Assembly (NCBI GenBank): GCA_963681505.1
Contig: OY811971.1
Span: 3,937,711 to 4,001,710 of the forward strand
Direction of reading: 5' to 3'
Length of the DNA stretch: 64,000 nucleotides
Source of the DNA: Eunapius fragilis
Taxonomy: Eukaryota; Porifera; Demospongiae; Spongillida; Spongillidae
Part shown: positions 1,131-41,800 of the stretch, one piece after another
How positions within the stretch are numbered: position 1 is the first letter of the stretch
Layout of the letters: each line of letters opens with the position of its first letter
The notes under the pieces: model-generated
The model's input: the letters and a program-made list of their open reading frames with translations, nothing else
Database searches by the model: none
Told to the model about the DNA's origin: nothing
Made by a program: the position numbers and the translations under genes

Positions 1131-1245
1131 CTGGCAGTTTGAAATGAAACCCCCGGATATCTCCCACCGCCCGTACGGAATCGGGGGGAGGGGGGGGGGG
1201 GGGGGGGGGGCCGGGGGGGTCGGGGTTGACATTGATAGGTGCGCA

Positions 1246-1603
1246 CTTAGAAATCGAGCGTGCTGGCTGTGGCAAACCGCTTGAGTTCCAATCCATTTAT
1301 GCGTCAGGCCCGACGCACAGGGCCAAAAGTTGGTGCGGCCAATGTCAAGGGCGTAGCAGCCCTCCCGCGAACGCGCGAAAGGTTAATACTAGTCAGGGAA
1401 ATCCACGAATGAACACAACTGAGTTGTACTTTTGAACGGGAATCGCTTATAAATTATTTTGTTTATTATCCTATTTGCGTTTACTATAAAGCATAAGCCC
1501 CCAACCCCTAAACTATTCCCATCGAAAAAGTGACTCATTTAGCCCTTGAACGCGGAAGATGATTTTTGCTACCTAAGACGCGTCAATTGCAAGTAGCCCT
1601 GCT
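1246..1603. other. No gene recognised
   Basis: A short open frame crosses the first part, but it has no recognisable domain and no splice-site context. I see nothing else. Confidence 0.4.
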
Positions 1604-1796
1604 GGATTCATAACCAATCGTGATTCAAGTGAACTTTCTTTAAAGGCTTTCTACGACAACAGGATGAGATAGTAGTCCCATGAGCGGCAATGATTTCTAC
1701 TGACTACATTGCAGTAGAAATCATCATTGCCGCTGCATGCATGGGGATCTTAAAGCCTTTAAAGGATGTTCACTTAAATCACGATTGGTTATGAAT
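1604..1796. mobile_element. Foldback/MITE-like element, ~190 bp
   Basis: The ends are inverted copies of one another (left core cataaccaatcgtgatt, right core aatcacgattggttatg). An inner inverted pair includes gcggcaatgatttctac and its complement. It has no coding capacity. The outer limits are approximate and no clear target duplication is visible. Confidence 0.75.
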
Positions 1797-2093
1797 GCAA
1801 TGAATTATACTGTACATGTACACATGTAAACAGCAGTCCATGCGGAATTGTTGACTCATCTTGATAATTGACTCATCCTCTTAATTAAATGCAGCTCTTA
1901 ATTTAAACAAAACGATCAGTATAAAATAATTACATAAATATATTATTAGCGGTACTTCATGGTACATATTACTTCTAACGCAAGAGCACACATCATATGC
2001 AATCAGACAAGCGGGCCCAAATTGGATACGCCCATATTTTGGGATAGAAAGTTGGTGCCGTACCAACCGTACCGTGTGCGCTGGGCCGGGCCT
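1797..2093. other. No gene recognised
   Basis: AT-rich sequence with no supported feature. Confidence 0.4.
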
Positions 2094-2357
2094 GTGCGTG
2101 CACAACGCTCTAGAGCATGAAGGTGTATGGTGTCTGGGGTTAGCTTAATCTGAAACGCAACCCTTCCTTTTTGATCTCTGCACACGCGCAGGTGTATCGA
2201 ACATGCAACCCCCTTGTAGCTACATGTATTTATCAACATGCAGTACACTCTCATTGGCCTACTAAAACCTGTTTCTTAATTGTTTAATTTATCTTCATTG
2301 GTGAACCAATTATAAATACATGTATTTGGTTCTACAAAATAAAATCCATAGGTCACA

Positions 2358-2421
<64 letters not shown>

Positions 2422-2716
2422 CACACACGTGCACTCACATACATACACAACCCCAGATCAGAGCAACTGGTGTCATTTACATGTAATTCTGTCAGAATGC
2501 TCCCACATGCTTAGCTTGTAATTGGTGTGTGCTTGGTATGGTTGGCTGTTTGCCCAAAAGGGGTCAAGCGACAGTGGGTGTGCTGTCCCCTACCCTGAGT
2601 GTGACTAGAACCAAAGTTACCATTTGGTTATCCCACACCTTGACGCTGGTCAAGGTAAGGTGGTTAGGTAAGGGAAACACCCAAAGGGTGCTGCCTGCCA
2701 TTGGTGTATAAACAAT
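2094..2716 (+). repeat. Left arm of an inverted duplication (uninterrupted copy)
   Basis: Read on the minus strand, this segment matches in order 4838-4911, 5761-5876 and 12321-12575. Shared landmarks include ccttaccttgaccagc, gaccccttttgggcaaac and aaaaaggaagggttgcg. It therefore shows what the right arm looked like before transposons entered it. The arm also contains a (CA)n tract at about 2361-2419. It may be a dispersed repeat family present twice or one inverted duplication event; the window alone cannot separate these. Confidence 0.85.
2361..2419. repeat. (CA)n microsatellite
   Basis: About 30 nearly perfect CA dinucleotides. The open frames across it (His-Thr repeats) are artefacts of the repeat. 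Confidence 0.95.
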
Positions 2717-3286
2717 AACACCTGTAGCAATGCATGTATAAGCACAGCCAATGCACAAGTGGTAAGCTATGCAGCTGGCATTTAGCTGTAAACGGAGTGA
2801 TTGCAGCCCACCTCTACCATCCTTTACATATACATGTGTGACCTGCAACCACACCAGGTGTCAATATTTTGGGGACAGTGTGTTGGATTGGGTATGACTG
2901 AAAGTGAGAGATTTAGTTAACCGATTAAGTCCTGTAGCCGCAAATTCGCGTCATATGGTTGTTTACAGCTACCAAGGTGTTTTGGGGGACATGACCACAA
3001 ACCACAGAAAGATTATACCAATTTGAAATCCTTCAAGAACACGGCTTCAGCGGGTATCGTTGGATTACCCCTTCCTGCCACAAAACATTTTTAGTGACCA
3101 CATTTAAGATCAAATAACCTCTACATAACAAACCATATTTAGGCCTTAATCGGTATGGAGGGGAGGCTTTCCCAGACTTTTAGGCTCAGGGTTGAATGGA
3201 AGTGAGGCTTTCCCAGGGGATACTCCAGGCTAGAATCTAGGTGGGAATTAGCTGAATTTAGTGTACTGCGATGTTGCCATGTGCAC

Positions 3287-3323
<37 letters not shown>

Positions 3324-3858
3324 ATGGGCAGTCAATGGGCAGTCAGTCATTCACACAACAACATCAATGCTTTGCTTTCCTATTTGTCCACCTACAGACA
3401 AATACAAAACTGCCTTTAGCAGTCATTCTATTCATCATGTTTCACTTTGTATCTAAATTTGTATTTCTATTGGAGCATTTGCTTTTTCTAAATTGTCTTG
3501 TGTTTCACTATCACATTTGTGCATGCACACACATACACACCACACACAAGCACTAGCATACACTTGCAACTGCAGCCACATGTTTATTGTTTGTGCAAAT
3601 TTGTGTTTCTTTGCTCTGGCAATATTATTAACAATTACCAATAGGTCTTCTTGTTACCTTTTGCACTCTTAGACATATGCATGCACATGCACACACACAC
3701 ACCCACACATGTACACAAACCCACATGCACATGCTCACATTCATGTACACACACAGGAGTATGCTTCAATCACAAACATACATGTATGTGCATATGCACA
3801 AATAAAATGGTTTTGGCAGTCATTCATCTTACCACACACACACACACAAACACACACA

Positions 3859-3895
<37 letters not shown>

Positions 3896-4171
3896 CCACA
3901 CACACTTGTAAATTTGTGTTTGAATTATTATCTAATTTCCCTGTTGTCTCTTGTTGCTATGTGCACATTTAGATGTGAGCCTGTAGTAATACAAGAATGC
4001 ACACTTATGCACACATGCATGCATGCACAAACACACACACTCACACAAACAAACAAACCAACACACATATACACCTGTGATCTATTGAAACCCCTAATAC
4101 AATGTGCCTATGTGTGTGACCCAGATCATAATAATTGGTGTCATAAAACCGGCATATTTTTGATCTTTGTG
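2717..4171. repeat. Non-genic stretch with CA microsatellites
   Basis: CA tracts lie at about 3289-3322 and 3835-3905, with shorter ones at about 3526-3548 and 3685-3750. Between them I see no exon or recognisable element. Confidence 0.7.
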
Positions 4172-4207
4172 GTGTGAGTGTGTATGTATGTATTTGTTTT
4201 GTACATG

Positions 4208-4294
<87 letters not shown>

Positions 4295-4336
4295 TGTGTG
4301 TGTGTGTGTACACAGCATGCCTGGGCAGCATGCTGT

Positions 4337-4384
<48 letters not shown>

Positions 4385-4421
4385 CATGTACAAAACAAAT
4401 ACATACATACACTCTCACACA
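4172..4421. repeat. Large near-perfect palindrome with TG and CA arms
   Basis: The left arm starts at gtgtgagtgtgtatgtatgt and the right arm ends with its complement. Between them lie a long (TG)n, the centre acacagcatgc..gcatgctgtgt (about 4313-4340) and a (CA)n. Nearly the whole 250 bp can pair with itself. The unique outer arms (tatttgttttgtacatg and its complement) show that the symmetry is not only due to TG meeting CA. Confidence 0.9.
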
Positions 4422-4583
4422 CTAGGTCCAAATGTATAAAAGGCATGGAATACATGGAATTTAGAGAGGTGGTGACCAGCTTATAGCTGATACCTCTGTA
4501 CCTTAGCAACAAGTGGAAAATTGGTGTCTTTGAACAGGTTCATTTTTGGCAAGCCAGCCCTGCTGTAGGGTCATGGCATGAGT

Positions 4584-4652
4584 GTGTGAGTGTGTGTGTA
4601 TGTGTGTGTGTGTGTGTGAGTGTGTGTGTGTGTGTGTGTGTTTGTGTGTGTG
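4584..4652. repeat. (TG)n microsatellite
   Basis: Interrupted TG tract, non-coding. Confidence 0.9.
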
Positions 4653-4911
4653 TGAAGTGCACATGACAACACCAGACATTTGTAACCAGATGTTTAAAAA
4701 ATGGTTCTAGACCTGTTCATCATCTCTTGATAACTGTGGGGCTGCCCAGGCCACAAAGGTCCAAACGTGTTCTTTTAGTGTTTGTTTATGTAGATGTATT
4801 ACAATCTATATATCATTGACTGAACTTGTACATGTTTATACATCAATGGCAGGCAACACTCTTTGGGCTTTTACCCTTACCTAACCACCTTACCTTGACC
4901 AGCATCAAGGT

Positions 4912-5760
4912 CACGGGCGCCGGAGCCGCCGGACCAATATTTAAAAAACAAGATATTATTATTAAAATTAAACACAAAGAGGTAATGTTGGTTGCTGTGA
5001 ATAGAAAACGCAGTATACATTCATGTGTATGTAATACGCGCACGCATAATTTATCGCTACGTGTACATCAATGCCGCCAGTTAATTAAATTACTGTAACT
5101 AAACACACCAATGGATCAGCACCTGTCGTCATCGCTACCATCGTCCTCTTTGACTAAGCCCACTGGCTTATCGATTGCATCGATGCCAGAGAAATTTCAC
5201 CCCCCGATGTCTTTACTTTTACCTAAGCGTGCCTTTGGATCGAAGGACGAGATGAGCTCGTTTCGAGCCGAATGGTGTGAAAAATACTAGTACATTACAG
5301 CTGGCTCCATTACGATAATTCTACAGATTTCGAATCGAACTCATTGCTGTGATTTTTGGGCGGCAAACCGCGAACTGATGAAAGTTTAGGACATTAACAC
5401 AGCAAAAAAACTCGTAGAATCAATTCTTGATTTTCGATTGATTTTCCACTAACATTCTGGTACATATTGTTAACAGTTTGTACCAGGTGTGTAAACATTT
5501 TGTACCAGAATGTAAGTGGCAAATCAATTGAAAATCAAGAATTGATTCGACGCGTTTTTTTGCTGTGTAAAAACGCACAACTTGCAAAGCTTCTGGGGCT
5601 CCGCCCCAGGCCCCAATGGGGGAGCTTACAGCGCTCCCCCATGCCCCCTGGCTGGGCGGGAGGGGGTAAAACCCCCTCCCGCACCCACCCCCTTAGTCTC
5701 CGCCCACCTAGTTATTTATTCATTTGCCGGACCAATGTTTTATACCTTCCGGCGCCCCTG
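4912..5760. mobile_element. Non-autonomous DNA transposon, 849 bp, 5-bp target duplication
   Basis: The ends read cacgggcgccgg and, inverted, caggggcgccgg. The element is bounded by the direct repeat aaggt (4907-4911 and 5761-5765). The uninterrupted host copy has a single aaggt at this point. The motif gccggaccaat occurs near both ends in the same orientation. Inside are a 172-bp foldback and a GC-rich block with short hairpins (about 5585-5700). No transposase frame is present. CAG..CTG-like termini with 5-bp duplications would fit a hAT-like family with short duplications, but this assignment is inference. Confidence 0.8.
5397..5568. repeat. 172-bp foldback inside the 849-bp element
   Basis: It starts acacagcaaaaaaa and ends with the complement tttttttgctgtgt. 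Inner segments (aatcaattcttgattttc, ccactaacattctggtac) also pair. It is either a separately inserted foldback element or the native core of the host element. Confidence 0.85.
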
Positions 5761-6090
5761 AAGGTGTGGGCTAACTAAATGGTAACCTTGGTTCCAATAA
5801 TGCTTAGCGCCTGACTAGCTACTGGCTGGCTGTTGCCTGACCCCTTTTGGGCAAACAATTAACTGTGCCATGCAAGCAGCCCCAATGAGAGGGGGGGGGG
5901 GGGGGGGCGGGCAAAATCCCCGGGCCCGGGCCTCAATGGGGCCCGGGCCTTTAGAGCCACGCCCTTTATTAGTCACTAGGCACGCCCCCACAGGCCTGGT
6001 CGACTTAGTTGCTAATTAGTTTCGGGGCCCAGATCGTTGTAACCAATCAGCGTCTTGATTTACACTTTCTGTTTAACGAGCGGCAAGAAT

Positions 6091-6188
6091 GAGCTACCAT
6101 CACAAATCAGGCGCCCAGAAAAGAAGGGAAAAGGCAATGCGTGCTGAAGGGGTCAAAGGGCAGAAAACGCTAAAACAACATGGGTTTG
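6091..6188 (+). pseudogene. 5' fragment of a hAT transposase (zinc finger MYM/TTF-type N-terminus)
   Basis: From an ATG at about 6091 the plus strand reads MSYHHKSGAQKRREKAM followed by a short basic stretch with KGQKTLKQ. An N-terminus with SGAQKRREK is typical of hAT proteins of the ZMYM1-like/TTF-type group (family knowledge). The frame runs into the end of the first inserted MITE at 6189. No body of the transposase (RNase H fold, dimerisation domain) remains between the hAT ends. This is therefore a remnant of an internally deleted or interrupted element, not a working gene. Confidence 0.6.
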
Positions 6189-6527
6189 CAGTGGCGGATA
6201 CAGGGGGGGGGGGGGGGGGGGGAGGGGGGTGAAACTGGGTTTTGCCCCCCCCCCCCCCCCCCCCGCCAAGTTAGAAATTAAATATTCATAGCTACAAGGG
6301 GCGGTGTCTTACGTCGCCCTGATGATACAAATACAACGAAAACGCCGAAGTAACATGATAACAGTAAAAAGCGGCTGGGGCGAAGCCCCAGACCCCGGGT
6401 ACATCTTCCTCTCTAACGCGCAATATTTCGTAGCCACGCCCAAACCATGATTATTAACGTCCCTCCCCTTTGCCCCCCCCCCCCCCCCCCACCCCCCCCT
6501 CGCAAAAAAATTCTGGATCCGCCACTG
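6189..6527. mobile_element. MITE with cagtggcgga ends, 5-bp target duplication
   Basis: The left end is cagtggcggatacag and the right end ctggatccgccactg, flanked by gtttg (6184-6188 and 6528-6532). Long G and C runs lie just inside both ends and can pair. There is no coding capacity. The same termini recur in the 45,469-45,578 element. Confidence 0.85.
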
Positions 6528-7102
6528 GTTTGCAGGGGCGTATACAGGATTTTCCAAAAGGGGGGGTTGAGATCCGCGATCGCTTCAGGTCCGATACGAA
6601 AAGCGTAGGGGGGCACAGGGAAATTATGCGTCAAATCATATTATGATTTTACAAATGATTTGTCAGATGATTCATATTATTTGAGTATGATTCCGAATCC
6701 ACTAAAATCAAGCGTTGATTCTTTAAATCATGTGGAAAATCACTATTTTATTTTACGCATTTGTTCCCCAGAAATAACGTTGTGATTTTTAAAACGATTT
6801 GTCATATGATTCATGCGATTTGAATATGATTTTGAATCCACTAGTGTAAATTTTTTAATTCATGTTCATGCAGCATACACATGTACATGTTTTTATACCA
6901 AATCAATTCCATGCATCCATTCTAAGGATGATTTTGAAATCAAAAGCCTTTGATACACATCCATGACATTAATTAAAACTTAAAAATATATATCCATGTG
7001 TTATTGTCAACATTGTAATTCACAGGGGAAGTTCACACACATAGAATGATGATGTTTTCCCTGCAACTGGAGCTAGAATACAACGGTTCACAAAACGCCT
7101 AG

Positions 7103-10100
7103 CTAGCTTGGACTTAAAATTCTATCACGTTCATAGAATGTGTTATTCACCATGAAAAGGCCAGATGTTTTATCTTTGCTAGGTGATCTAAATGTCAGCC
7201 ATGTCACATAAGCAAATAACTTGTCTTCCATCACAGTTTGATTAATCCCATTGATATTGCATTGCAATGTAAAGTATACTTTGAAATACAATCGAACCAC
7301 CCCAAAGTAAGGATGAATATCATTGCTCTCTTTCAATGCAAACATGGATTTGACGACTGATCCTCTGTCTGTTGAATTGTACTCAGAGGAAAATGTTTGT
7401 CCATTAACAAAGCAACGCCCAAACTTATCTATTAGTGGCAATGCACTTACATCAGTGCTGTACAACATCCTCAAATGTTCTTCTAATTCTCCTATAAACT
7501 CATCACTCACTCTTACTCTCAATTGACTAGGACGAAGAAGTTCAATTGGCCAATTCAAAACATCTCCTCTGTCTAACTTTATTTGAAACTGAAATCCATC
7601 TTCAGGTGGTTTAAGCAAATTTGATATCAAAAGTAAATTATCACTGAATGATGTATCACTTTCATTGCCTTTAGTAATCATTGAAACGTCTTCTTTTGTC
7701 ACAGAACTTATATCAATATCTACAACCTGTGATGAGAATTGCTGAAGAAATTTGTTCATGATTTGAAGCTCGATATTTTGATTGTTGTTAGGAATATCGG
7801 ACAAGAACCCATTTAAGCGTTCATATGCAAAGCACCAGTATCCATGGGATGGCCCAAAGTCATAAATCACATCAGGTATATGTAAGGCCATATGATAATT
7901 AATTGTAACTTCCCACTTCCCATACACTGTAGCAAACAATTTGTGATGTTCATTTAACAATCTAAAGAGTTCATCAATTTCTTCACTAGCAAAGGTAGGC
8001 TTTATCAATAGTTCAATTATTTCACACAGTAGACAGTAACTTTTGTATGCATTGGCAGATATCAACCCTGACAGACATGGCCTAGCATATATACATGCAA
8101 AATTTTTCCACTGCTGAGCTGTGAGCCCTGAAAGCCCTTCACTGATGTTGATGTTATTTGGTAGCCTTCCCATATCATAAGGCACTTTTATGTTTTTCAA
8201 ACGTTTATAAAACTCTGATAGTTTTGTGCCTGAAAGAGATGATAAACAAAGTTTTGTTTCATTTTGGACCATTCCTAGCAAAAACGTGTGCATTGGGTCT
8301 GTAATTGTCATCCTTACAATGTCAAAGTATGGTAACCTAAGCAGTTCACTGTATCGGATGCCATTTTTTCTTTGAATGTTCTGTGCCTGTGTTAAGGACT
8401 CAGCAGATTGATATTCCTTTGCTTGTATCAATGTTTGGGCTTTCGTTCTTTGTGGTGCATACAACCGTGTGTAATAACTCATCTTCCCTGATGCACCCTG
8501 TTTGCCTGGTTCACGTTCTGCCTTAAACGTGCAACGGGAGCACCCTAAGTCAGCCTTGTGACCTAGGAATTGTGCAACTTTTCTCAAAGCAGGCATATCT
8601 GCTGAAAGGCCAAGTAGAGCGGCTTTAACATTACCTCCATTGGGAAGTAAATCCAAACCATCCTTCAATAACAAAAGATCATCAACCAGTGGAGCTAGGA
8701 AGGTGTTTATATTACCCTTTGGTTCTGATGGACCAGGAATCACTCCTACAATCATAGTCCATTTAGTCTTACAACGTTCTTGCCTTGGTAAGTTGAGAAC
8801 AGAGATCATAATTGCAGAAACCTTGTACTCAGAACGCTTAAAAGGTTTGAACCAATCAATGTTTAGAAGCAGACCAATGTTATTTGATGTTAAGAAGAAT
8901 GGTTCAGATGTGCTTTGATCAATGACAAAAGTTTTCCAAATATTTCCATCATGCACATCTTTTAAGACATCTCCAGGTGATTCAAAACCTTGCTTTGAAC
9001 TGTCAATAAACTTACAAAACTGCGGATCTTTGAACATGTACTTTAACCATGTGGATGGAGGTAGAAAATGGTATTTCTTGTAGGGCGTCCTTTTTGTTCT
9101 ACTAAATGCTAGACTTCTTTGGTAACCATGCTTATGCCCACAAGGTTTTCCAAATATAACATTAGCACAGGTTATGGATGTTTCTGCATCAATAGAACTG
9201 TACAGTTTGTTACATTTGTTATTTGGACACACTGTGTATATCACCATGTCCATATGAGTGACACCAATAGTCTTATATAGTCCTTTTAATGTGGTTGGGA
9301 AAATCTCATACAGTGGATGAGCAATTAATTTTAGTAAAATTGAAATTAGTCCACAAAATGCTATAAGAACTGCCTTGGATAATCTAAACTTGAAGTATAT
9401 TTGTAACAACATTGCGCACATCCATTTAAGAATTGCTCCATGAGATATATGTGAATTAGTCTCATTTTGTTTATCTTCATTACTTGATTGCTCATGTATT
9501 TCGCCAGTTAATGCAGTAGGAATTGTGCATTTATTTTCGTGGCTTTCATTGTCTACAGAAGTAAATATGAAGTGAATTATAAAATAATGTAACTCTGTAT
9601 AGTATTTAATTTTATTTCCTTAGATCTGTCCCATTAATATTTATTTGGTAGCATTTTATTTATTTTAAAACTAGTGTCTGTCTACATGATAACAGCATGC
9701 TATTTGAGTAAGTTACCTGATGGCAGGTCTTCACCTTCTTCATGAGTGCCATCCATTAGCTGCATTTCAGTACCTGTATCATGATATATAGGGTGTTCAA
9801 ATCAACTCCATCAGCAATATTTCAATACATCACAACACAAACAAACTGACAAAAGACACAAGTACAAAAAATTGAATGAAACCTGGATAATTATAAATTA
9901 AATAACAGCACACTGTTACTTTTCCAAGATTGTGTACCATGCCTGTATATGCAAAACATTAAACTTTGTCATACCTTGCTCAAATGGTGATGAAGTATCA
10001 AATAAATTTGATTCTGAGTAGGAATCCAACTGAACACCATCTAGAAAAAAATAAAAATCACATACATGGATGTAGTTAAAAAAAAGAAAAGTACCTGAAT

Positions 10101-10528
10101 CAGAATCAGATGAAAGGCTTGAAACGGAAGCATGTGTATGATCAACAGTACCATTTTCATCATTCTCTGTATTCATCAAAGCCGTACTGCTTGTGGTTGT
10201 CGCCTGATCACATTCATCAACCACTTGTTAGTATTAAATATAAAATTCATATATGTGCAACTATAACGATAATTACCATACCAGTGACTGTATCATCAGT
10301 GACCAAAGGCTCGGTTGTACAACCAGCATCGCAGGATGGATGAAAAGTAGTAGACGTCGATGTCATGTGCATCTGTTGCGCACGTGCACTTGTCGATGCT
10401 GAGGAAGACAACGCTAACAGGCCATATATGGCACGATGTCTTTGGCGCGTGGGATAAGAACAATAATGCTTATTTTGACACTGTGAACAGTCACACAGAA
10501 ACTGCAAACTTTTCTTTGACGTCGACAT
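7103..10528 (-). CDS. CACTA/EnSpm transposase (TNP2-like), five exons
   Basis: Exons by eye: 10282-10528, 10095-10223, 9975-10040, 9717-9773 and 7103-9552. Together they give 983 codons with consistent phase and no internal stop. The product should cut the element at its CACAG ends and reinsert it. The N-terminus starts MSTSKKSLQFLCDCSQCQ, a cysteine-rich segment that may bind zinc. It is followed by acidic, Ser/Thr-rich linkers. The last exon holds the catalytic core of the Transposase_21/TNP2 family: LNIDWFKPF (first Asp), the block LSADMPALRKVAQFLGH with a CSRC motif, ITDPMHTFLLGM (second Asp) and FAYERLNGFL (likely catalytic Glu). An internal Met in the last exon gives a 772-residue frame, but the upstream exons continue it in phase, so the longer start is preferred. 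Its start codon lies about 50 bp from that of the divergent second gene. Confidence 0.88.
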
Positions 10529-10579
10529 CTTGCATCTGCACGCATGCGTAAAAATCACATGTCCATTCTAATGAGAAAA
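10529..10579. promoter_or_regulatory. Putative bidirectional promoter of the CACTA element
   Basis: The two start codons face away from each other across about 51 bp that includes the palindrome cgcatgcg. No TATA box is evident. If the second gene uses its farther upstream in-frame ATG (10544), the gap shrinks to 15 bp and the 5' leaders would overlap. Promoter function is inferred from position only. Confidence 0.45.
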
Positions 10580-11748
10580 ATGGCGCGAAGACATGAAGGA
10601 CGTAAAACTAGTACTCCAAAGAATAGTTTCACCGATACACCGGCAAGTTTTCGTGAAGAATTAAGACTGTTGAAAGAAAGAATTGTACATCTTGAAGCAA
10701 TCGTGGACAAGATTGATGATTTGGAAGAGAAAATAGAGGAATTGATTAATAGAGGTATGTTCAGTTATACAGCGTATGATTCTTGAAATCATTGCACTGT
10801 GTTGTGCGCTTAAATCCTTATAACACACGCATTTTAGAGCCCGCCGTACTGGATCCTAACCTTGAATCATCCTTAAGCGCTACAGGAAGGCCGGTTGAGG
10901 GCGCAAAGGACGTCGTGCCACTGGTGCGTGTATACATGTATTCACGTACGTTCACGCTGGTCTATCTGTTTCGTTTTCTCATTGGTAGATGATATTGCAA
11001 GACGCATTTTCGCAGCAACCACGTTTGAAAGAACTGATGACAACGACTCCATGGAGTTAGCTTGACTCTCAATCAAAAGAACAGCTTGCTACATCTGTGG
11101 AAGCTGCGCTGAGGTACAATAAGTGCAAGATTCCTACAAACAAGCGTATCCTGCAACGGATTAAGGTACGTATATGCTAGCTATAGTGTATGCATTTCGT
11201 AACTGGATTCACTGATCGATTGTTGCAAAGGCCTACTATTCTATGCGTCGAACGCCTGAACTGGCAAAAGCTGATCCTGTTAAGCTACATGAGCGGAAAC
11301 TGTGCATGAAGAGGAGTAGACTTACTTATGTAAGTACATTGAAATAGAATGTGAAGGTTGACAAAATTATTTAATTTAGGTGGCTCGAGACAAGGCTGTA
11401 AAAGAAGCCATTTCCAAAGGAACAGTACAATCTGGAGATATGGAGAGCATAACAAAAATACGAGACTCTGTTAAGCCAATACCACTGGAAAATCTAACAA
11501 TAGAAGTTGCTGATCATGAAGATGGTGCCAGCAAGGTGCGACGGCTTGAGAGTATTTCTAACGCTCGAGAGGCAAGATGGAAAAAACATAATGTGTGCAC
11601 ACGCGACTCAGATGCAACTGATCAGGATGTTGAAGAAACTTGTAGTACTGCGGCCAGCAGAGATCAGTATCCCCCTCAATCCCAAGTACAAGAAAGTGCA
11701 TCTGCTGGCAGTGAAAATTATCTCACTTCAGGATCAGATGTAGACTGA
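10580..11748 (+). CDS. Second CACTA-encoded protein, ~300 residues, coiled coil
   Basis: Exons by eye: 10580-10754 (in-frame ATGs also at 10544, 10559 and 10571), 10838-10927, 10989-11165, 11231-11329 and 11380-11748. Exon 1 is basic (MARRHEGRK) and then heptad-like (LRLLKERIVHLEAIVDKI), a probable coiled coil. The middle part reads CKIPTNKRILQRIK and MRRTPELAKADP. The C-terminus is acidic and Ser-rich, ending SGSDVD. I recognise no named domain. CACTA elements commonly carry a second gene for an accessory DNA-binding protein (TNPA-like in plants), so a helper role is a reasonable guess. Exon 3 shows an apparent one-base frame break near 11,065, which could be a mutation, a sequencing error or unrecognised splicing. 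Confidence 0.6.
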
Positions 11749-12575
11749 ACTGAACTGTACTCCTTTCATTTCATTTCTAAAAGAAATGCATTCGTGTTCG
11801 TGATTACAAATAATTATTTGTATGTGATTTGGTATATGATTTCCTTTAAAAATCATCAAGATAATCATTGAACGATTTTTTGTGATTTTGAAATGATTCT
11901 ACTGTACATTTCTGTATAAAATCACTACTAAAATCTCTGAGTTATTTGGGAATGATTTTATAAGGATTTCACAGTTGATTTTTCTCTGAAAGATCATAAT
12001 CTGATTTCACAGACGATTTCAAAAGCTAAAATCGTGTGAAAAATCATAACATGATTTGACGCGAAATTTCCCTGTGGGGGGGGGGGGGGGGGCTGTCCGG
12101 CGCTTCAGGCCCGATATAAAAAGCGGGAGGGGGGCTGTTTAGCAGAAGAGGGGGCGGTACCTTATATGAAAGGGGGGGTTGCAACCCCCAAACCCCCCCC
12201 CCCCCCCCCCCCCCCGATCCGCCTCTGGTTTGATGTGATAGCGTTTAAAGATTAAATGAGATTGATGAGATTCATTAGGCTAGGGGCCCGAGAAAAAATT
12301 TGTGGCTCTTGGCGGCCCTGCATGCAAGCACAATGGGAATTACACCAATTGCAAGCTAACGATGAGGGTCACTGAGGGAGCATTTTGAATGAAGTAAACG
12401 ACCCCAATTGCTCTGATGTGGAGTTGTGCGTGTATGTGAGTGTGTGTAGAGCTACAAGGAGGTGCATGTTTGATATAATGTGCGTGTGCTGAAGTCAAAA
12501 AGGAAGGGTTGCGTTTCATATTAAGCTAGCCCTAGACACCGTGCACTTTCATGCTCTATAGCGTTGTGCACGCAT

Positions 12576-14822
12576 AAATGGTTGGAACTCACGCAGTTTG
12601 ACCGAGCCAACACGCTCGATTTCTACGTATGCCTACGCGAACGTACAGTGTTGTGTATGCTGATGACAGCTGAATCCACGTAGTACGAATCTTTAGCTTC
12701 TGTTCGCTATGAAGAAGGGGAACAGAACCAGATGTTTGCAAGAAGCGAAAACGCCTTACTTGTTGTATTACAGCGTATAGATGGGCGGTGACATATGGCC
12801 GGGTGGAGACATAGTTATTTAACATGAAGTAATTGCATATTACTAATGGTTCTTCTGAGCTACAGCAGTACCATTGCAGTCAAATGTTGTGAACCACCTA
12901 CTATGCAGGTGTTTCTGCAGGCAATCTTTCAAGACCATTTCTGGTCTGAAAGACCTTGGTGAGAAGTTTCGATGTCCCTCTGCATGATGTGACAAGAAAT
13001 TTGTGACCAGGAGTGGTTTGGGATATCTTCTCCTACTCCCAAGATTCAAATACAACGACCAATGCATGATGCATAACAAACAAGAGTGTACACATTACTA
13101 GTGTAACATGAAACGGAATGTATTGTGCACAGTAATACAGTATGTGTGTCAGTGTAAAAATCTCCATGGATACTTGTAATTCAGTGCTGTCTGTATTGGT
13201 TTTGGTTTTATGGTTGCCTTTAATCTGTAACCATGCCTACCCCTGCCACACCTGTTAGATGGATCACCATGCCAACTGCTCCTCCCTTTTTAAGCACCAG
13301 GAAATACAAAGGCAGGAGTGTAATGGAGGGCTTCTCACCTGCACTGCCTCACATTGGTAGGATTTTACATGTATGTTGTTCGTGTGCTAAATATAGGACT
13401 ATTACATTTCCCTTATTATTAGACCCTTGTTTCCTTCCTTTTAACACTACTATTGGCTTCAAGTCATATACACCATCGACTTTCTCATAGAGAATGTTTT
13501 TACATTTACTTGTTTTCATTCTTTTTTTGTGTGTGTGTGTTGAAATTACTAACTCCATGTGCAATTGATCGTTGTATACCCATGCAGACTAAAAATGAAC
13601 AGGAGTCGTTAAAGCTAAATGTAGGTGCATGGCTTACCTTACAGTGGTTAATTATGAGCACAGACCTATAGTACATCTACACCACTATTTAGAATGGAGA
13701 CTGTTCTAAAGCAAATAGGAACTGTATCCGATCGTCGAGAGTCCTTTCGGGTGCAGGACGCATTAATATACGTTAGTCAGTTGCTAACATAACCACCGTT
13801 ATATAGATGCACTGCCTCCAAGACTATTATACCACTGAAACGACTATGTGGAAGAATTGTGATTAGTGTTCCTGTCCTGAGTTATAAAGAAAAACCAGGA
13901 GAAAAATGGGAGTACGGAGTACCACCTTTTTTTGCGCACCATGTTTTGACATTGGACAAACGCAAAACTGCTTATTTCGTCTTCTCGTTTGGTATTTACA
14001 CCAAGCTGAACGATCAGATCGTCGGTTTCCCTGATAAAAACAGGTCTCGGTATTTTAATGAGTTCATATACGAGTCAAATCCTATATGAGGGTTACAAAC
14101 GTAACTCTCAATAGCTGGTATTACCATATGGACTGATATGGTCCTTCAATTCTTTACTAAAGTTACGACTCTTTTTGGCTGGGAGCCATAGTAGCCTTAT
14201 AATTGGTTTTGTTTTGCAAACTGGCCGGTACATGTGTATATAGATTACACCGTATGAATGTAGTGCATCAATACAACATATGCCTTATCCAGAATTTTAG
14301 TGCACCATTATTAAAAATCAACATGCCATGTAAGAACTTGTGATCCTTGTTAAAGGGAAAATGCCTTTTTCAAATTTAGGACTTATTTGCACTATTGAGC
14401 CTAGTCTGGAATGGTGCTGCACATGCAGTGAATGGCAAATGTGACTGGAACAGAATACTGATTTCAATTATTTCTTCATTCAGCTTTTTATATCCACAGA
14501 AAAGAGCAAGAACACCAATCAGGCATTTAATGATGCGTGAAATGAGGCATTCTTCCACAACTGATTCATTATCTATTGCATTTAGAAGGCCCTTAACAGC
14601 ACTTGCTGAATTCCAAGAATGAAAGTTACACTTTAATCAAAATTGCTTAATACATTATTTTAATATACAACTTCGCCAAATATTATGTACATAAACTGCT
14701 AAATGGACGAAGTAAAAGCAGCTATTTAATAAAGCAATTCCAACTATGCAACTATTATACCAGTTAAACTTGACAATACATGTTAGCATTCCAATCCAAA
14801 CAGCTTTCGTATTCATCGATTT
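12576..14822. other. Downstream flank of the CLC gene, no gene recognised
   Basis: Several short open frames (for example 13233-13490 and 13859-14089 on the plus strand) have no recognisable domain. The only supported item is a dispersed repeat at about 13,386-13,490. Confidence 0.5.
13386..13490 (+). repeat. Dispersed repeat shared with 41,640-41,745
   Basis: The two copies share attagacccttgtttccttc and the surrounding ~100 bp, including actttctcat near the end. They are probably fragments of one interspersed family that I cannot name. Confidence 0.7.
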
Positions 14823-38800: not shown

Positions 38801-41800
38801 GTAACCAGCATACTAAAAAAAAATTAACCAGGCTGTATCTTTGGGCAGATCAGACATGATGGGGAAAGCCTGTCGTTTCTTGCAGTCTGATGGCATTGCC
38901 CCAAATAATGAAGCAACATGGGAGTTTTTTCAAGCTAAACACCCAAGAGGCCCAGTCCCTTTAGTCCCTGCTACTCACTCTGCACCAGTTACATTAGAGC
39001 AAGACTTTAACATCTTACCTATTCTACACTCCTTCCCCAAGGACAGAGCTGCAGGGCCTTTGGGTCTGCGAGTGCAACACCTGCTGGATGTTGCTAGCAT
39101 CCCACTTCCCACACCTATTTGCCCCTTACTTCTTCAGGTAGTGAACATTTTCATAACAGGAAAAGCCCCCCTTTCTATCGCCAGATTTTTCGCTGGAGCC
39201 AGGATCATTGCTTTGACCATAATCAAAGAGGATTGCCCTCCTGATGTAAGGCCAATTGCGGTGGGAGAGACACTCAGGAGGCTGGCTGGTAAATGTGTAT
39301 GTGCCATCCTGAAGGAAAGGTTTGCAGATTTCTTTCACCCTTTGAAATATGGAGTGGCTTGTCAGGCAGGTGCAGAGAAGGTCATACATTAGGTTAGAGA
39401 TTGTATTGAGGAGCATTGGATGGATGATGATTTCATGTGTTTCAAGGTGGACATGAAAAAAGCATTTACAAACCGTCCTTGAAGAATGTGCCACTTTCTA
39501 CCCAGAGTTACTCCCATGGGTCTCATTACTGCTATGGGTCCCATCCTCTGCTATGGTACCCTCTTGGCAAATTACTTCAGAATTGGGAGTGCAGCATGGT
39601 GATGCCCATCTGGTGTTTCTTTAGCCCTCCACAAGTTGGTGTCTGGCATTGATGCAGATGATGGTTGTCTTGATTTACTGTTACAGGCCTGGTACTTTGA
39701 TGATGGGGTTCTTGCAGGTAGTCGTCCTGCAGTGCTTCGAGTGGTGCATCTGTTAGAGGAGTTGGGCCCCGCTCTGGGTATCCATATCAATCTGACCAAA
39801 TGTGAATTTTTTGGTAGGATGTGTAACCTCCTTCTGTAAGAAGTTCACTCGTGCCTAACCTTGACATCCTTGGGGCACCAATAGGCGATTACTTGCATTG
39901 CACCCACTTCATAAGTGGGAAAATTTCACAAGCTAAGGGGTTGCTATCAGCTCTGGTGGAGGTAGCTGCAGCTGATCTTCATGTGGCAACGTTTCTCCTT
40001 CGGATCTGTGGCAGTTTCTGAAAACTAGTTCACCTAGCAAGAACCACTCCTCCAAGTACTCCCCATGATTCCCTACGGTTCTTTGATGAAGAGGTAAGGC
40101 ATTGTTTCTCCTCATGCATGGCAGTCGACATTCCTGATGTTCATTGGCAGCAAGAACAACTTAGCCTCAGTTTTGGAGGTTTAGGTTTTCGTTCTCTTTC
40201 TCACCATTGCTGTGCTACTTTTTTTATCATTTTCAGGTATCGGTAGGGCTAGCAATAGGCACTTAGTGAGTGCCATTTCAAGGTTCAACATTCTTGTATC
40301 CTCTAGTGATGCCATCACAGTGAGAAGCTATTTTATCCTCTCCTCCTTCCCAGCATGCCTTGGGTAGGAAATTAGACAGTCATATTTTTCACTCAGTTTT
40401 GATGACCTCCTCTCCTGCTAACGAGGCTCGTCTTCTTTCCTCTTCTGCTGCTCATGCTGGCTCTTGGCTGTCAGTTGTTCCTTCTGTTGGTCTTGGATTG
40501 CATCTTGAATCTTATGAGTTCCATACTGCTGTGAAATGGTGGCTTGGCATGAACACTACTGCTAGATTGTCTTGCCCTTTTTGTCCAGACATTGCTTTGG
40601 ACCCACTTGGCCAACATGCAGTTTCATGCAGACATGGAGGTGATGTGGTCATTAGACACAACCGCTGATTTGTGCCGTTGTGCCCACTTATTGTACGAGT
40701 TGAAGTTGGTAGAGGGCTCTTAGGATCTCACAATTATGCACGGCCAGCAAATGTGCATGTTGATGGATGGGATAGGGCTAAGCCAGCTGCCTTTGATGTT
40801 ACTGTCATCTCTCCTCTTACCCCGTTCACCCCGAATGAGGCCAGCATCCATGAAGGAGCAGCAGCCTTGGCTGCCTAGACTAGGAAGCATGCAGCTAATG
40901 ATGCTAGATGCCAAGCACTCGGATGGTCATGCATTCCTCTTGCCGTGGAAACTTTTGGCAATTGGGGAAGAGAGGCCCAATGTGTTTTTTCTCGCTTGGC
41001 CACTCTGCTAGCCCTATGACAAACTCAACCTAAGTCTACAGTTGTCAGAGACAGATATGGTCACCTCAGCATCTCTCTGGTGCAGTCTGTGGCTAGGTCC
41101 ATTATAGGAAGAGAGACAGTTAATTAAAACTTTTGTAGGTAGACTAGGCGTTTAAATTTTTGTGAATAGTGTAGATCTCAATAATAATAGTAACTGTGAA
41201 AAAAAAAATAAAAAGTTCCCCTTCATCTTTCACGCCTTGCCTCTTGCCTGGTGGCTAGGCTAAATTGCTCCAAATCTCATACCACCTCAACACTTTATGG
41301 TAGGCACAACCTGGTTCTTGTCAGAGCAAATGCAAGGGCATCAGCTCTGACATCACGGCTTAAATACTAAAGCTGTCCAATCATATTTGTTGTGTATTTG
41401 GTGTGTGATAATAATAATAACAGTAACTGTGTAGCTTAGATCTGTAATAATGTACACATTCATTTATTCATGTATTCTCAAGTGTATAATTATTATTATA
41501 AGTAATAAAAACATACTCTATGAAAGAATAAGTGTATATAGGATTGAAGGCAATAATGAAGGAAACAAGGGTCTAATAATAAGGAAAAATGGAATTGTCC
41601 TATATTCAGCACACGACTTAACAACATAATGTCCTACAAATGTGTTAAATATTGGGCTATTACATTATCCCTTTATTAGACCCTTGTTTCCTTCCTTTTA
41701 CACCACTACTGCCATCCAATCCTGTTTACCACCAACTTTCTCATTTATTATTGTACAACCTCCTACATGTTAATAAACTTCAGCAATGCATAACAAATTG

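Follow-up and report, generated by a model that had tools for sequence, protein, structure and literature searches.

The window analysed here, a 64-kb stretch of the Eunapius fragilis genome (contig OY811971.1, positions 3,937,711 to 4,001,710), holds a nest of inserted transposons with clean target site duplications (TSDs). Its outermost layer, layer 0, has received an 849-bp element and a hAT-like element; within the latter lie two miniature inverted-repeat transposable elements (MITEs), M1 and M2, and a CACTA element sits in M2. All positions given below are those of the window. The layers were compared with their other copies within one genome (218.9 Mb, 24 contigs); in each DNA search the best 40 candidates were scored, and all copy counts are lower bounds. 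The nest is real, and the nesting claimed in an earlier note on this DNA, its broad assignment to families and most of its boundaries hold in this comparison. M2, however, which that note had inserted into the hAT element at this locus, occupies the same hAT gtttg at other loci. Most probably it was acquired by an ancestor of some hAT family members and then moved with hAT. The nest itself is ordinary genome biology, and nested insertion as such is well covered in the literature. What the locus adds is that an insertion order read from nested target duplications at one place can mislead: a nested element may be cargo.

The duplications reported for the nest were found in place: aaggt at 4907 and 5761, catgcaag at 5869 and 12321 (three occurrences in the whole 64 kb) and gtttg at 6184, 6528 and 12228. 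Because copies of hAT, M1 and CACTA elsewhere have the same ends and duplications of the same length, these repeats exceed what chance would give. Other copies of the families could have shown different ends, leaving the direct repeats inside the elements; instead, exact duplications flank 5 of the 6 other hAT copies (the 3' end of the sixth lies beyond the fetched stretch), 24 of the 29 other M1 copies and 4/5 other CACTA copies. For the 849-bp element the ends recur as well, but exact 5-bp duplications were seen in just two of five testable copies. A search for empty sites, which the earlier note had proposed, found them for a 170-bp element, a 790-bp element and M2.

M2 lies at exactly the window's gtttg in four of the six other hAT copies, each with its own 8-bp TSD, and the site is empty in the remaining two. 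Both sides of M2 read gtttg in the window and in 4/4 copies read, which may all descend from one insertion, and the four inserts have the same orientation and the same start. Genome-wide, a pattern for the junction between hAT and insert (up to one mismatch, reversed control 0) was found at 32 places: the window alone reads CAGTGG, the M1 end, 29 places read CAGGGG or CAAGGG, and two came without letters. The corresponding empty junction was found at 29 places (control 0), whose letters were not displayed. Reading identified M2 at four of the 31 other filled places, and at five more (C1:7165639, C2:9203200, C8:5636714, C14:4184845 and C17:5272915, identified by eye) an M2 match starts exactly at the junction. 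Among the 40 scored copies of the hAT search, the match ends at gtttg in 17, the window among them, continues past it in 22 and behaves otherwise in one. In 11 hAT copies the length of the insert at gtttg ranges from about 200 to 490 bases, partly because M2 has a unit of ~50 bases that is present in one to several tandem copies (L071, L074). Since many other hAT copies carry M2 at the same gtttg, hAT and M2 probably arrived here as one unit, and M2 would have been carried rather than independently inserted each time. Two points weigh against this reading. At 22 of the 31 other filled places the insert was identified from its first bases (20) or solely by the pattern (2). In addition, none of the non-autonomous families could be linked to a hAT transposase, no search for autonomous partners having been made.

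M1 sits between gtttg and the M2 end, the duplication being common to both elements. The earlier note had given M1 a gtttg duplication, and other copies bear out a 5-bp TSD: with the window included, it is exact at 25 of 30 loci, two have mismatches and in three the end was not found, at least two pairs among the 30 loci looking like duplicates of one insertion. The duplication is gtttg once, in the window, among the 25 loci with exact TSDs. The M1-type CAGTGG end occurs at one of the 30 hAT gtttg junctions with letters, again that of the window, and among the M1 matches listed none but the window's lies at a listed hAT copy (by eye). M1 at this hAT site would thus be private to this copy, a view that draws partly on the end letters; some M1 copies also begin CAGGGG, which weighs against it, and a second copy of hAT with M1 could exist.

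The closeness of the two MITEs could also have been produced if M1 had been directed to the M2 end by a common transposase and end sequence, giving a tandem insertion with a shared duplication. M1 and M2 do have CAGNGGCG ends in common, with precisely one 5-bp duplication between them, but we regard this explanation as unlikely. Exact tail-to-head end junctions with gaps of 0-25 were found genome-wide at nine distinct places, with a gap of 5 once and a gap of 1 three times (the scan reports each place on both strands, and the window's junction, with one base different, is outside the count). A gap of 5 is found at a single junction among the loci fetched, that of the window, which is present in the window and in three overlapping loci. 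End-directed tandem insertion was rejected as a habit of the family, exact tail-to-head junctions being rare genome-wide. At C2:4677594, C8:5759399 and C14:142551 two CAGNGGCGGAT ends are separated by a single base; these are perhaps products of excision or fusion.

It is very improbable that the hAT gtttg is a hot spot into which M2 inserted independently in many hAT copies. M1 landed on the same gtttg, so the site has been used at least twice, but the TSDs of the M1 family vary and gtttg is a single case among them, the M1-type CAGTGG end is confined to one junction, and the M2 inserts that were read share one orientation and one start. The order given in the earlier note, in which the hAT copy landed first and then received M1 and, after it, M2, has next to no chance of being right: gtttg does flank both MITEs, three times, and is empty in other hAT copies, but M2 is at the same base in four copies with 8-bp TSDs of their own, an insertion is present at that gtttg in up to 31 other places, and local insertion of M2 is already refuted, barring many independent hits on that one base.

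The claim of a complete CACTA element in the second MITE was confirmed by its other copies, which share its ends, and its G-run site is as described. At least five other full-length copies exist, 98-99% identical, with an exact 3-bp TSD in four of five; the terminal inverted repeats (TIRs) are 48 bp long and 88% identical. CACTA / EnSpm elements have CAC...GTG ends, a duplication of 2-3 bp and a tnp2 transposase. The element has CAC...GTG ends, and its long open frame contains a tnp2 domain (Transposase_21, E 1.1e-14, 54.5 bits against a curated cut-off of 28.6), while the other CACTA reading frames tested gave no Pfam match above the cut-off. It resembles the known superfamily in ends, in the duplication of 4/5 relatives and in tnp2, and no tested feature departs from it. 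The duplication of one copy (L013) is not exact and the G-run in which the window's element lies hides its own duplication; both are points against the history proposed below.

The 849-bp element is 676 bp long once its insert and the duplication made by that insert are subtracted. Its relatives match the query at 91-560 and then at 731-923, and the gap is a 170-bp element, which was overlooked in the earlier list of layers. The 170-bp element ends in CACAGC...GCTGTG, its site is empty in 7/7 fetched relatives of the 849-bp element, and four other copies have the same ends. With CAC...GTG termini it is a candidate CACTA-like element, to which no transposase was linked. A TA duplication was considered for it and rejected, as taa fits with a perfect CACAGC end. 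Several copies speak against clean duplications in these two families. Exact duplications fail in three of the five testable 849-bp copies (two further copies are outside the count): L006 and L008 share four bases, shifted by one, and L005, a 2-kb variant, has flanks that differ. For the 170-bp family an exact 3-bp duplication was found in just two of the four other copies.

Layer 0 had been described as a host repeat with an uninterrupted inverted copy at 2,094-2,716. It is a repeat with an inverted copy, but not a plain host repeat: it is one arm of a dispersed element. The inverted copy matches both flanks of the nest in four BLAST blocks (identities 91%, 75%, 72% and 87%); the two that flank the 849-bp element have an overlap of exactly 5 bases, aaggt. 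When the 849-bp and hAT elements are removed, the joined flanks read across the hAT site as sequence resembling the arm at 2,094-2,716. A search with the arm (query 2,060-2,760; best 40 of 551 candidates scored, 41 rows) gave 10 inverted pairs, or 21 of the 41 rows, among the matches listed (paired by eye). The pairs run minus then plus, as in the window, measure 2.9-6.1 kb end to end, within 7 kb, and are located on C1, C2, C4, C6, C8, C12 and C19. Inside such pairs at other loci there are matches to the window core (2,761-4,837), the sequence at 12,577-12,841 extends both arms of pairs outward, and the 40 rows for a 61-base piece ~0.3 kb farther out include seven inverted pairs within 7 kb. 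Each arm of the C19 copy is ~1.5 kb or more in length (left arm 2,006,400 to about 2,007,934); compared with each other the two differ at 0/58, 1/61 and 1/61 bases in three outer pieces and by 2 in about 85 in a fourth (by eye). Layer 0 thus consists of inverted arms around a common core, dispersed in the genome. The label of host repeat was rejected on the inverted pairs, the common core and the longer arms of other copies; the two copies would be best read, from these alignments, as both arms of a single long-inverted-repeat element that was hit in its right arm.

The left arm is not uninterrupted. It is broken by a 790-bp element and resumes at 1,245-1,304, a segment that matches 12,570-12,628, so that base 2,094 is the final base of the insert and not an arm boundary. 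The site of the 790-bp element is empty in 12/12 fetched arm ends from six other copies, which, like the window's right arm, read ATTTATGCGTGCACAACG. A 234-bp insertion is likewise absent from the relatives of layer 0, whose matches adjoin at that point. Layer 0 would itself be a transposon with termini beyond the fetched sequence. Against this stand the other 20 of the 41 arm rows, which are partnerless within 7 kb among the matches listed (one of them is the window's left arm), and the termini and TSD, which were not found, the arms being still alike at the outermost pieces fetched. With its two arms 9-28% apart per block, the window's copy seems far older than its inserts, with the reservation that the arms could have been unlike to begin with. 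Separately, the right arm stops matching its relatives at 12842, where their arms continue outward, perhaps through an insertion or a deletion in the window's copy, and the core contains a large imperfect (TG)n/(CA)n palindrome (4224-4422), parts of which match core relatives. Inside the 790-bp element, positions 1603-1799 form a palindrome of ~200 bp with ~70% opposite-strand self-match, perhaps another MITE.

We propose the following history, which as a whole we consider very probable. The layer-0 copy would first have sat at the locus, and its right arm would later have taken the 849-bp element, which is hAT5-like, and the hAT-like element. The former would then have been hit by the 170-bp CACAG-ended element. 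The hAT-like element would have been a non-autonomous copy already carrying M2 at gtttg, both landing as one unit. M1 would have inserted precisely at the gtttg on the left of M2, before or after the hAT move, the CACTA element in the G-run of M2, and further elements in the left arm of layer 0. Each insertion step was presumably driven by a transposase. The order follows from nesting: M2 into hAT in the history of the family, hAT with M2 into the right arm, and M1 and CACTA into this hAT copy or the one from which it came; separately, the 849-bp element into the arm and the 170-bp element into the 849-bp element. The claim of the earlier note that the insertions can be put in order layer by layer breaks down at M2, which probably came with hAT.

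Its further claim of relative ages for four families was too strong. Neither the 849-bp nor the hAT element lies inside the other, and nesting leaves them unordered, as it does M1 and CACTA. Private substitutions per site amount to 2/634 (0.32%) for the 849-bp element, 1/280 (0.36%) for hAT, 1/246 (0.41%) for M1 and 15/5447 (0.28%) for CACTA, in small samples of 8, 7, 30 and 6 sequences, respectively, the window included. Dating the inner layers by divergence was rejected, as values of 0.28-0.41% have overlapping Poisson intervals. Nesting and not divergence gives the order, the inner layers having, within error, the same private divergence. It is possible, though less likely than not, that M2, with complete ends of its own, became a lasting hAT cargo, a piece of DNA that two transposases can multiply, and that the hAT5-like, hAT and CACTA inner layers inserted within too brief a time for substitutions to tell them apart, as if several superfamilies had been active together.

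The CAG...CTG ends of M1, M2 and the 849-bp element would be like those of hAT5 elements. M1 and M2 have 5-bp TSDs, and the three families are candidate members of this group. Target duplications of 5 bp are given for the hAT5 group in PMC12730594 (Kapitonov and Jurka 2007, as cited there), and those of M1, M2 and the 849-bp element (in the window and two of five testable relatives) agree with this. The same paper gives the hAT superfamily a target duplication that is usually 8 bp long. The hAT-like element is alike in its 8-bp duplications, in the window and 5/6 relatives, and in its CAG...CTG ends; it differs in being non-autonomous, in having M2 as cargo and in its TIR, which is short and imperfect. 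A precedent for one mobile sequence multiplied within another is MER6, described in PMC6887750 as a mariner-type MITE with a part derived from a short interspersed nuclear element (SINE). M2 is likewise multiplied as part of another element, but in that account a SINE piece lies in a mariner-type MITE, whereas here a MITE with both ends lies in hAT and the empty form persists. A hAT family with filled, empty and doubly filled gtttg in a single genome offers a clean case for measuring the frequency with which a MITE moves by its own ends and by those of its carrier. Table 1 lists the features of the nest.

Table 1. Features of the transposon nest and their positions in the window.
Feature	Position	Strand	Remarks
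Layer 0, left arm and core	1245..4837		followed leftward as far as possible; interrupted at 1305-2094 and 2921-3154
790-bp inserted element	1305..2094		ends CAGGCCC...GGGCCTG; TSD tgcgt at 1300-1304 and 2095-2099
234-bp insertion in layer 0	2921..3154		TIR about ACCGATTAAG; matches of relatives abut at query 160/395
Layer 0, right arm	4838..12841		split by inner insertions; match to relatives ends at ~12841
849-bp element	4912..5760		TSD aaggt 4907-4911 / 5761-5765; ends CACGGGCG...CGCCCCTG
170-bp CACAG...CTGTG element	5398..5567		inside 849-bp element; TSD taa 5395-5397 / 5568-5570
hAT-like element with cargo	5877..12320		TSD catgcaag 5869-5876 / 12321-12328
M1, 339-bp MITE	6189..6527		CAGTGGCGG ends; TSD gtttg 6184-6188 / 6528-6532; at this hAT copy only as seen
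M2 MITE	6533..12227		found at this gtttg in some members of the hAT family; split here by CACTA
CACTA (EnSpm) element, 5,463 bp	6614..12076		in G-run of M2; compatible with TSD ggg
Open frame (stop to stop), 838 codons, tnp2 (Transposase_21) domain	7103..9619	-	in CACTA element

Two further repeats were noticed in the window. To the left of the layer-0 arm, at about 910-1130, lies an inverted repeat (TTTCGTACCCAGACCCAGAT...), perhaps a MITE (by eye). Outside the nest, a repeat at 13350-13511 and 41500-41744 occurs in direct and inverted forms that are 74-82% identical.

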